Shown piece after piece: positions 4,877 through 8,206 of a stretch of DNA of 45,354 bases (positions are counted from its first letter, which is position 1; the number at the start of each line of letters is the position of its first letter). The position numbers and the translations under genes were made by a program. Source of the DNA: Bacteroidota bacterium (GTDB lineage: Bacteria; Bacteroidota; Bacteroidia; Flavobacteriales; Flavobacteriaceae). The notes beneath the pieces were generated by a model. The model was given only the letters and a program-made list of their open reading frames with translations, was not told where the DNA came from and searched no databases. The stretch is taken from positions 1 through 45,354 of the forward strand of contig CATAMV010000057.1 in NCBI GenBank assembly GCA_949487855.1, in the 5' to 3' direction.

Positions 4877-5371
4877 ATGGATATTGTACTTTTAATTTTA
4901 GGGGCTTTACTTATAATGTTGGGTATAGCGGGCAGTTTTTTACCTATAATCCCAGGGCCATTAACGAGTTGGTTAGGATTATTATCATTACAATACACAA
5001 GTAAAATAGAGCAAGATTGGGGGTTTTTGGGGTGGACATTGGCAATTGCGATACTCATTATGATATTAGATTATTTAATTCCCATTTGGGGCACCAAAGC
5101 CTTGGGTGGTACAAAAGCAGGTGCTATTGGATCAACCATAGGCTTAGTAGTGGGACTCTTTTTCCCTCCTTTTGGGATTATTTTTGGACCTTTTGTAGGA
5201 GCTTTTGCGGGTGAACTTAGTAAAAACCCTAACCGAAAACTTGCGCTTAAGGCGGCTTTTGGTTCTTTTTTGGGGTTTCTTTCTGGGGTATTTATTAAGT
5301 TTATTGTATCGTTTATATACCTGCTATTTTTTGTTACGGCAGCCTGGAAGGGGTTTGAAAGTTGGTTTTAG
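4877..5371 (+). CDS. DUF456 family membrane protein
   Basis: LGIAGSFLPIIPGPLTSWLGLL, LDYLIPIWGTKALGGTKAGAIGSTIGLVVGLFFPPFGIIFGPFVGAFAGEL. Confidence 0.85.
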   Translation: MDIVLLILGALLIMLGIAGSFLPIIPGPLTSWLGLLSLQYTSKIEQDWGFLGWTLAIAILIMILDYLIPIWGTKALGGTKAGAIGSTIGLVVGLFFPPFGIIFGPFVGAFAGELSKNPNRKLALKAAFGSFLGFLSGVFIKFIVSFIYLLFFVTAAWKGFESWF

Positions 5372-5505
5372 AACCAGAAGCAAAAAGGAAGGCGTTATTT
5401 TTTCAAATCACAATACTATACTTATTAAAATACGTGTACTGAAGTTGTTCTGTATCAAATCACAATAAATTTTAACTAAACAAAACAATAAAAACGGATT
5501 CTTCC

Positions 5506-5943
5506 TTAATGCATCTCTGGAACTTTTAAAAGTTTATAAAACGGGGTAATATCGCCAAGTATACTAATGGATACCTTAAACGGGTTGTGCGTAAGCCAAC
5601 CTGTTTTTTTATTACCAAAATTTAAAATTCTTATGTAATTGGGGTAGGTTTGGTCATAAACATTCAAGTCGTAAACATGCCTAAATTCGTAATACTTGCT
5701 AGAAATACGTTGTACACGGTACACATGCTCCCACAAGCTTACACCATTATTTAAGCGATGGTAAATTTCTTTATGACTCAAGCCTAAAATAAAACAGTCG
5801 TTAATATGTAGTGTGGACATAATCATACGTCCATCCAAGGGCAACTGATATGGTGACTCTTTCTTTCTTATACGCTGTACGGCCTCCCAAAATGTTACGA
5901 CATGCTCTTGAAGCTCGTTATCAATGGTTCGTCTTCCAATCAC
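5506..5943 (-). pseudogene. Cas9 C-terminal domain relic (type II-C-like)
   Basis: LQEHVVTFWEAVQRIRKKESPYQLPLDGRMIMSTLHINDCFILGL...YRVQRISSKYYEFRH...IRILNFGNKKTGWLTHNPFKVSISILGDI matches the remembered pattern of the C-terminal ~140 residues of Bacteroidota Cas9. No nuclease domains in the window; first codon is GTG inside an open frame. Confidence 0.75.
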
Positions 5944-6097
5944 TATTGTAAATATGGGAAAGTGAGGGTAGGCTGAGTGTGAAAAAATGAATTGGCAAGT
6001 GATATATCGGTTAAAACTACGTTTTCAACCTTTGTATAGCCAAAAAAAGACGATGCTATGTAATGTGATTAAATTCCTACAATGAGTAGGCTTTATG

Positions 6098-8206
6098 TTA
6101 GTAATACTGACTACGGTTGTCTGTTACCTCAAAATTATCTTTTAGCACCTCCGTAATATTCGTTTGAATGTTTTGCTTGGCAGCGTTTGAAATAGAAGCT
6201 TTGTAACCTGCATAGTTAGATAGGTCCTTTGCTGCTGTTTTGGCTTTAAGCTTTACAAGGAACACGCCTGAGTTACCTGTAATAGGCTTAGAAATAACGT
6301 CTTTTTGCATACCAAAACCAACGCCAACAACTTTAGGCTCGTTAGAAGCACCTGCTAGCATACTTGTAAAACGGTTTACCGCTTTTGCAGAACTTATCGT
6401 TTGTTCAAATTTATCCGCAATTTCTTCTAATGAATTATAATCGTCTATTTGATCGAGTAACATGGCTTGCTTTTTTTCTTTCATAGCAAGTGATGAAACC
6501 GTTGCTTTAAGCTCATCTGGGTCAGGGAGCCCAGCCGCTTTTACTTCTTTTATTTGAACAATAATATAGCCTCCTGAAGACAATGCGAATCGCTTTACAT
6601 CTGTTGCTTTACGTTCTTCTTCGAAAGCCCAACGCACTACTTGTCGCTGTGCACCCAAAATAGGTAATGATTCATCTAAAACTTTAACGTCATTAATGTT
6701 TTTGACACTATAGCTTTTCTGAGCTGCAATTTCATTGAACCCTGAAGCTTGCACATCCAATTCAAATTGTGTAGCGTCAGTAAAGACTTGGTTACTAGTG
6801 GCTTCTGAAGGAATCAATTTTTTGGATATAGTGGCTAGTTTAACCACATCTTTTTTGTCTTGCACTTCAATAATGTGAAAACCAAACTCTGTCTCTACAA
6901 CACCAAATACACCCGTGCGATTTCCAAAAACAAAATCACTGAAAGGTGCTAACATATCTTCTCTTACAAATTCTGGTAATTCTCCACCTCTTGAAGCAGA
7001 TGGCCCGTCAGAATTTTCAAGAGCTAACTGAGCAAAATCGCCACCTCTTCTAACTTTTCTTAGCAACGCGTATGCTTCCTTTTTTGCTGTTGCCTTGGAA
7101 CGAGTTACCGTTTCTGCGGCTCTTGATGCACCATTGTACGCAATTAAAATATGGCGCGCTTTGGCTTTCCCCTGTTTAAGGCGAGAAACTACACGTGATA
7201 TATTAGTAAAACCGTCATCTTCATATGGTCCAAAAACTTCTTCTAATGGCAAGTTAAATAGCGTGTTAGCGTAGTTACCTGAAAGTTCTGCCTCGGAAAC
7301 AAAAGCGTCTTGAAAAGGAACATCTGAATTTTCGTTCACAAAACTTGATATTTCGTCTGTAGCAACATCAGCAAAAGAAGGAAAAGTTTCTTCTTGTTTT
7401 GACACTTCGTTAAATTCGACACGAGTGGTAAGCAATTCTCTTAATTCGTTTTCGATAAGCACTTTATCTTCAGGGATAGCGACCTCAATAAATTGTACAT
7501 ACTGTAAGTCTCTAGATTCTTCACGCTCATAAGTGTCAGCGTTATCGGCAATGTAGCGTTCCATATCTTTATTAGAAACCGTAACTAAACTATCTGGAAT
7601 CACATTGTAAGGAATACGCACATATTCCAAATCGATTATATCATTTTGTAAGGCGTAGCTTTGCTGCCCTTCAAAGTTAGTGGTGTTTAAGCCAGCGGAA
7701 ACCATATCAACATAATTTTCAACGCGAATGTTATTTTTTATAGATGCCTCTTGAGCTTTCCACTGTTCAAACCCTTGAGGGTTGTTTTGGCTTAAGTCTA
7801 AAATAAAATCTGTGAAGCGGTTTGGGTCAAAAGATCCGTCTTCTCCCTGGAATTGTGGGTCAGCAGAAAAATTAGGGTCATTTTCAATAAACTGTTCAAT
7901 GTGGGCTTTTCCAACATATAAGCCTAATGCATCAAAAGTTTGTTCAAAAGCTTTCGCGTTGCTAGATTGATCGAATGCGAAATTTACAGCCTGCATGGTA
8001 GTCATGCGGTAGTTACGCTCAGCAAAATCCACCTGGCGGCTAAATTCATCAATCCCAACTTCTTCCTCTCCAACAATCAAAACAGGGTCTTGACTTGTGG
8101 AGGAGTTTCCGTCAAAAACTCCAGTGAAAACAAACGCCAATAGCGCCATTCCAATAATGAAGATTAAAAAAATAGAACGTTCTCTGATTTTACTTAAAAT
8201 AGCCAT
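6098..8206 (-). CDS. ppiD: SurA/PpiD-like peptidylprolyl isomerase, membrane anchored
   Basis: N-terminal MAILSKIRERSIFLIFIIGMALLAFVFTGVF anchor; parvulin motif ARHILI...ALLRKVRRGGDFAQLALENSDGPSASRGGELPEF...GVVETEFGFHIIEV. Confidence 0.88.
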   Translation of the reverse strand: MAILSKIRERSIFLIFIIGMALLAFVFTGVFDGNSSTSQDPVLIVGEEEVGIDEFSRQVDFAERNYRMTTMQAVNFAFDQSSNAKAFEQTFDALGLYVGKAHIEQFIENDPNFSADPQFQGEDGSFDPNRFTDFILDLSQNNPQGFEQWKAQEASIKNNIRVENYVDMVSAGLNTTNFEGQQSYALQNDIIDLEYVRIPYNVIPDSLVTVSNKDMERYIADNADTYEREESRDLQYVQFIEVAIPEDKVLIENELRELLTTRVEFNEVSKQEETFPSFADVATDEISSFVNENSDVPFQDAFVSEAELSGNYANTLFNLPLEEVFGPYEDDGFTNISRVVSRLKQGKAKARHILIAYNGASRAAETVTRSKATAKKEAYALLRKVRRGGDFAQLALENSDGPSASRGGELPEFVREDMLAPFSDFVFGNRTGVFGVVETEFGFHIIEVQDKKDVVKLATISKKLIPSEATSNQVFTDATQFELDVQASGFNEIAAQKSYSVKNINDVKVLDESLPILGAQRQVVRWAFEEERKATDVKRFALSSGGYIIVQIKEVKAAGLPDPDELKATVSSLAMKEKKQAMLLDQIDDYNSLEEIADKFEQTISSAKAVNRFTSMLAGASNEPKVVGVGFGMQKDVISKPITGNSGVFLVKLKAKTAAKDLSNYAGYKASISNAAKQNIQTNITEVLKDNFEVTDNRSQYY

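Follow-up and report, generated by a model that had tools for sequence, protein, structure and literature searches.

The stretch of DNA analysed here (the window) comprises 45,354 nucleotides of contig CATAMV010000057.1 from a genome of the Flavobacteriaceae (assembly GCA_949487855.1), and carries at positions 5506..5943 of the reverse strand an open reading frame (ORF) of 145 residues which, judged by its sequence, is a C-terminal remnant of Cas9. The ORF lies between a ppiD-like gene (6098..8206, reverse strand), the conserved neighbour upstream of the Cas9 site, and a DUF456 gene (4877..5371, forward strand; PF04306, E-value 2.5e-37), which is conserved as the convergent neighbour 3' of Cas9. 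Comparison of this interval over the genus indicates that positions 5935..6097 (reverse strand) are what is left of the intergenic region on the ppiD side, which the deletion joined to Cas9 codon ~981. Two units resembling CRISPR (clustered regularly interspaced short palindromic repeats) RNA, or crRNA, lie on the reverse strand between the ORF and the DUF456 gene: unit A (5450..5486; GTTTTGTTTAGTTAAAATT followed by TATTGTGATTTGATACAG), whose repeat part pairs with the anti-repeat of the trans-activating CRISPR RNA (tracrRNA) of relatives and which also forms a hairpin, and unit B (5403..5426; AATAAGTATAG followed by TATTGTGATTTGA). Our analyses support, with a probability of roughly 80%, an origin of the ORF as the deletion remnant of a vertically inherited, nuclease-dead orphan Cas9 of small-genome Flavobacteriaceae.

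Identity of the window ORF

Standard family scans could not name the ORF, because alone it has no sequence match in Pfam, NCBIfam or PDB. Its identity was settled by tblastn, in which the same sequence appears as the end of Cas9 frames of 1122-1127 residues at the identical locus of same-genus genomes. Positions 5934 down to 5509 (reverse strand) correspond to Cas9 residues 981-1122, that is, the C-terminal, protospacer-adjacent motif (PAM)-interacting end; about 141 residues of the ORF are Cas9 end, in which the same-genus full-length proteins also finish, and its first few codons (VIGRR, with the GTG start) stem from former intergenic DNA. GTG is the first start of the frame, and the in-frame TGA that the sequence-only reading had placed some 80-90 bp upstream lies at 6027-6025, 82 bases upstream. 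Matches to the ORF were found in 28 of 301 genomes of the family, many of them in frames of 1100-1540 residues; ten of the matching loci, close or more distant, come from metagenome-assembled genomes (MAGs), several of which are labelled Bacteroidetes or Flavobacteriaceae (loci are designated below by L and a number).

The fold agrees with this assignment. The AlphaFold2 model of the 145 residues (predicted local distance difference test, pLDDT, 80) was compared with PDB by Foldseek, and its top four matches were all Cas9 chains (three of CbCas9, one of SaCas9), with CbCas9 as the best, probabilities of 0.98-1.00, a best template modelling (TM) score of 0.62 and a best E-value of 2.6e-3. First proposed from the letters, the assignment to the very C-terminal end of a type II-C-like Cas9 from Bacteroidota is thus borne out by same-genus full-length homologues and by the fold match. 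Descent is established through full-length relatives that match the Cas9 family TIGR01865, whereas the ORF alone matches neither Pfam nor NCBIfam. An unrelated family of 145-residue proteins was ruled out by the clear Cas9 descent together with the absence of Pfam, NCBIfam and PDB sequence matches. No further piece of Cas9 was found elsewhere in the window's ~90% complete genome.

Full-length orphan Cas9 proteins at the same locus

The ppiD-DUF456 interval of L030 (= G169), L031 and L032 carries a full-length cas9 (1122-1123 codons) that ends in the homologue of the window ORF, and full genes are likewise present in L048 and L051. The ancestral order is ppiD, tracrRNA (on the reverse strand), cas9, crRNA-like units and DUF456; relative to it, the window interval is without the tracrRNA gene and Cas9 residues 1-980, both present in relatives, and so has neither the HNH nor the RuvC domain. 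A deletion remnant between ppiD and the DUF456 gene, shorter than the intact orthologues that occupy this place, is what the sequence-only reading had proposed, and in this respect it stands.

It had further taken the lost locus for a CRISPR-Cas system (cas9-cas1-cas2), and here the sister genomes speak otherwise: their interval does hold an intact cas9, but cas1 is absent. We compared 18 genus genomes at the locus, all draft assemblies and most of them MAGs. A search that was positive in 9 of 14 reference genomes found cas1 in none of the 18, the window's included; cas2 was not searched separately. Clusters of tracr-compatible repeats (DTTGTGRTTTGA pattern) were absent from the same genomes apart from the pair at the locus, in a search that a strongly diverged repeat would escape; the pattern recurred only as this 52-bp pair and as scattered singletons. 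Active relatives in the family have Cas1 (PF01867) near Cas9 (L065, L067, L071) and arrays of a 36+30 layout, with GTTGTGGTTTGATTAAAGATTAGAAAACACGATATT as the repeat in L073. Of the marks of a type II-C CRISPR-Cas system, the genus Cas9 therefore has the tracrRNA and lacks cas1 and an array.

The full-length proteins are recognizable as Cas9 throughout. Against TIGR01865 (cas_Csn1; cut-off 100) two of them score 372 and 340 bits over the whole length. The AlphaFold2 model of L030 (pLDDT 73; predicted TM score 0.40) matches Nme1Cas9 (E-value 8.5e-39) and other Cas9s along its entire length, and the 50 matches listed are, so far as can be judged from the descriptions, structures of Cas9. The orphans have nevertheless lost catalytic residues in both nuclease domains. 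In all ten full-length orphans the EH of HNH is replaced by VY, IY or LM and the RuvC-III Asp is gone (HHAxDA destroyed); the RuvC-I Asp is missing from nine (exception, L032) and the RuvC-II Glu from seven (kept in L068, L124 and L125), whereas active sisters keep the catalytic columns. The bridge-helix arginines and the C-terminal NHH and KTGW motifs, among others, are invariant in dead and active proteins. L032 (5055-5090) is the lone full-length orphan with a RuvC-I Asp, its other catalytic residues being lost, by late loss elsewhere or by reversion.

The ten orphans, from several genera, form a single clade (Shimodaira-Hasegawa-like approximate likelihood ratio test support 100), in which L064 is a long branch. 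In the other genera (L062, L064, L068, L124 and L125) the orphan cas9 stands in the same order before DUF456-lipoprotein-ruvC-hemN, and this recurrence argues for vertical inheritance at a fixed chromosomal place.

tracrRNA and crRNA-like units

Full-length orphans are preceded, on the reverse strand, by a tracrRNA, which in the genus has the form ATCTTATCACAATAAGGC...GCCG.GGA...GTCCCGCTT.GGTGGGAC-TTTTTT. Its core, like its type of terminator, is common to orphans and active relatives (L064 version of the core, CACACTAAGG); genus members have a TAnnTTTG box immediately before it and an anti-repeat shortened to ~17 nt. The 3' side of cas9 holds one crRNA-like unit or two, in each of which a seed-like stretch runs into the 5' half of a repeat. 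Unit A (GTTTTGTTTAGTTAAAATTTATTGTGATTTGATA) is identical in 8 of 8 genus genomes with complete or nearly complete Cas9; in the genus of L062 and L063 it shares only AAGTTAAAATTTATTGTGATTTGAT, and its closing stem differs. In other genera unit B reads AATAAATATAGT followed by GTTGTGGTTTGATTG. The window keeps both units (5403-5486, reverse strand) despite the loss of the tracrRNA.

Duplexes between units and their own tracrRNA mostly comprise ~9 bp, a 2-nt bulge and 2-8 bp, the canonical shape of lower stem, bulge and upper stem. Their energies range from -11.8 to -19.5 kcal/mol, compared with shuffled means of -5.6 to -10.2 and reached by 0-7 of 200 shuffles, so that the diverged repeats pair with tracrRNA as expected of guides of the small CRISPR-associated RNA (scaRNA) type. 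The units also fold into stems, with z-scores of -7.2 and -6.2 (two genomes), -1.7 (two others) and -0.4 (window). A search of Rfam at the locus returned no known RNA.

Repeated loss of Cas9 across the genus

Among the 18 genomes, five have an intact cas9, two carry a single A-run frameshift that may be an assembly error (L029 and L049) and in one the gene is interrupted by contig ends and by an N gap. Two retain the C-terminus only (the window and L033), L052 has a decayed 3' fragment with a stop, and in five (L057-L061, of which L061 starts near a contig end) Cas9 is gone with the site still visible; the two remaining genomes are unresolved. An apparent frameshift in L050 proved to be an N gap and no mutation.

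A tree of flanking genes places L029 as the sister of the window (support 0.91) and L059 as that of L033 (1.00); full-length L030 and L031 fall near the window, and the fork of window, L029 and L057 is weak (0.45). Since full-length relatives separate the window from L033 on this tree and their breakpoints differ, their C-terminus-only states most likely arose by independent deletions, and Cas9 has been lost repeatedly in the genus (window, L033, L052 and L057-L061). The L033 junction shows CAACC microhomology, that of L059 fuses anti-repeat DNA to a downstream unit across the word TTATTGTGAT with one mismatch, and that of L061 lies near ATAAG. The L059 and L061 junctions sit at short words common to the anti-repeat and the downstream units, and in both genomes the tracrRNA gene, whole or partial, survives the loss of Cas9.

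Remnants in other genera retain one or both ends of Cas9. In L131 (4026-4208) an internal deletion has left residues 1-41 as well as the C-terminal end, which shows that not every remnant comes from the 3' end alone. In L077 (6697-7290) and L075 (4370-4900) open frames join a LuxR-type helix-turn-helix (HTH) protein to the final 50-85 residues of dead Cas9; these fusions apparently represent further independent remnants, in two genera, that arose by deletion.

Selection on the full-length proteins

The ratio of nonsynonymous to synonymous substitution rates (dN/dS, Nei-Gojobori) between L030 and L031 was 0.115 overall, 0.06 in HNH and 0.094 in the C-terminal part, and pairs of full-length orphans in the genus gave 0.10-0.14 overall and 0.06-0.07 in HNH. 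Active pairs gave 0.087 (L067/L070) and 0.147 (L066/L071) for comparison. Dead yet constrained, with a dN/dS of ~0.1, the full-length Cas9 would be expected to do something that requires its fold.

Discussion

A dead Cas9, domesticated long ago, with a shortened tracrRNA and fixed, stem-closed guides may serve several genera of Flavobacteriaceae as a chromosomal RNA-guided regulator, a Cas9 counterpart of TldR, and we give this proposal slightly better than even odds. Together with its short tracrRNA and a fixed scaRNA-like guide or two, each made up of a seed of 10-12 nt and half a repeat with a closing stem, the full-length protein would form a complex that binds DNA through the seed and blocks transcription instead of cutting. 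In the window a deletion has removed the tracrRNA and 87% of Cas9; with these gone, the remaining C-terminal domain (CTD) cannot form such a complex, and is probably a recent, non-functional remnant.

Several observations weigh against parts of this interpretation. Exact searches with 13-nt seeds in 14 Cas9-bearing genomes returned the locus itself and chance-level single matches at unrelated places, and in the window's own genome units A and B had, besides the locus, only matches with 3 mismatches; guides of 6 nt suffice for TldR (PMC13418256), so that short targets would escape a 13-nt search. The repression step is modelled by analogy with the F. novicida Cas9-scaRNA and TldR. The unit stems lie near a terminator, and their conservation need not mean guide function. 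Under a codon model, finally, dN/dS on the terminal branch was 0.060 for the window CTD (95% bound ~0.15) and 0.042 for that of L033 (bound ~0.09), against a background of 0.061-0.064 for the two, and neutrality along the entire CTD-only branches was rejected (twice the log-likelihood difference, 18 and 25); were the CTDs unselected, both deletions would have to be recent, within roughly <10% (window) and <3% (L033) of the branches. Unit A was also considered as an autoregulator acting on the cas9/tracrRNA promoter, a role that is unsupported, a match of 18/24 being found in L049 and none in the other genomes.

These rates are also a reason to consider that the CTD was retained as a stand-alone PAM-interacting protein, able by itself to bind DNA or what crRNA-like RNA is left. 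Its frame came intact through two independent deletions within the genus, and open frames containing it occur in L074, L075 and L077 too. Breakpoints, lengths and N-termini, however, vary from case to case, the fusions in L075 and L077 to the upstream LuxR-type regulator are expected from random joins, L052 is decayed and L131 keeps the 5' end. The window ORF has no ATG start and no obvious promoter, the Bacteroidota -7 box TAnnTTTG being absent from the scanned positions 5944-6100 upstream of it. A deletion as recent as the final few percent of the branch would fit the low dN/dS as well as continued constraint does, and it is after recent deletions that a frame should still be open. We therefore consider retention of the CTD unlikely, in agreement with the ranking of the sequence-only reading, even if the CTD-only branches keep the idea alive; the anti-Cas9 role then suggested for it is itself improbable, as no Cas9 was found in the genome for it to act on. 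That the contig wrongly joins ppiD-side DNA to a Cas9 3' end in a genome with a full cas9 is conceivable in a draft of 129 contigs, but highly improbable: the assembly yielded no second Cas9 segment, L033 has a similar deletion with other breakpoints, and L057-L061 carry further, differing deletions at the same place.

The full-length orphans could themselves be slowly dying, functionless pseudogenes, to judge from the lost catalytic residues, the A-run frameshifts in two copies and the absence or truncation of the gene in at least 8 of the 18 genus genomes. Ten orphans from several genera nevertheless maintain intact frames of ~1120-1140 codons down to ~31% identity, and their tracrRNA is conserved with promoter box and terminator; frames of this size would not outlast such divergence unselected, and in view also of the dN/dS of genus pairs we regard pseudogenes as a poor explanation. 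A more serious, if still doubtful, alternative is that units A and B serve solely as hairpin terminators for cas9 and the DUF456 gene convergent with it. They sit between convergent stops, fold into stems containing one UA/CG compensatory pair, and persist in some Cas9-less genomes (L060). Their conserved core, on the other hand, is the 5' half of a CRISPR repeat that pairs canonically with tracrRNA, and it follows a seed-like stretch conserved across genera, whereas the closing stem differs; in L058, which lost Cas9, the unit is eroded. We thus favour, though not strongly, scaRNA-like guides, which may be processed from the cas9 3' end, over terminators.

Known systems offer partial parallels to a regulator of this kind. 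Type II-C Cas9s that come with cas1 and an array, represented in other Flavobacteriaceae by L065-L071 and among solved structures by CbCas9 and NmeCas9, resemble the orphans in overall fold, in bridge helix and PAM-interacting end, and also in tracrRNA core and the 5' half of the repeat, but the orphans are without catalytic residues, cas1 and array, have a shortened anti-repeat in the genus, and are vertically inherited at a fixed place. In F. novicida, scaRNA is likewise a small diverged-repeat RNA that pairs with tracrRNA and has a short guide; FnCas9, however, is active and belongs to a full CRISPR system (PMC8730458), whereas the orphans are dead and no CRISPR system was found with them. 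Streptococcus L-tracrRNA (tracr-L) autoregulation similarly directs Cas9 repression by a short natural guide, although that guide lies within the tracrRNA and the Cas9 is active (PMC8730458), while here the tracrRNA is short and the guide-like units are separate. Nuclease-dead TnpB repressors, or TldR, share the loss of catalysis and the domestication of an RNA-guided nuclease family; they differ in family and guide RNA architecture, and repression has been demonstrated for them (PMC13418256), whereas for the orphan Cas9 it is inferred.

This bacterial group thus seems to have turned Cas9 to a different purpose and then lost it again and again, and the interesting part is the dead-Cas9 lineage behind the window remnant. 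The window represents the end stage, a recurrent loss by independent deletions, some of them at words common to the anti-repeat and guide units. Engineered dead Cas9 (dCas9) is a standard tool. We found no description of a natural dead-Cas9 lineage under selection without a CRISPR system in the open-access literature of PMC, a body that excludes preprints and the bulk of subscription journals. Because the lineage supplies orthologues in several genera, each accompanied by tracrRNA and candidate guides, natural, immunity-independent gene control by Cas9 becomes directly testable.

A small LuxR-type HTH gene directly precedes the orphan cas9 in L124 (5772-6098; GerE match, E-value 1.9e-8), L125 (2717-3028), L068 (9293-9607) and L064 (11432-11821), and is a possible functional partner or co-regulated gene of the dead Cas9.
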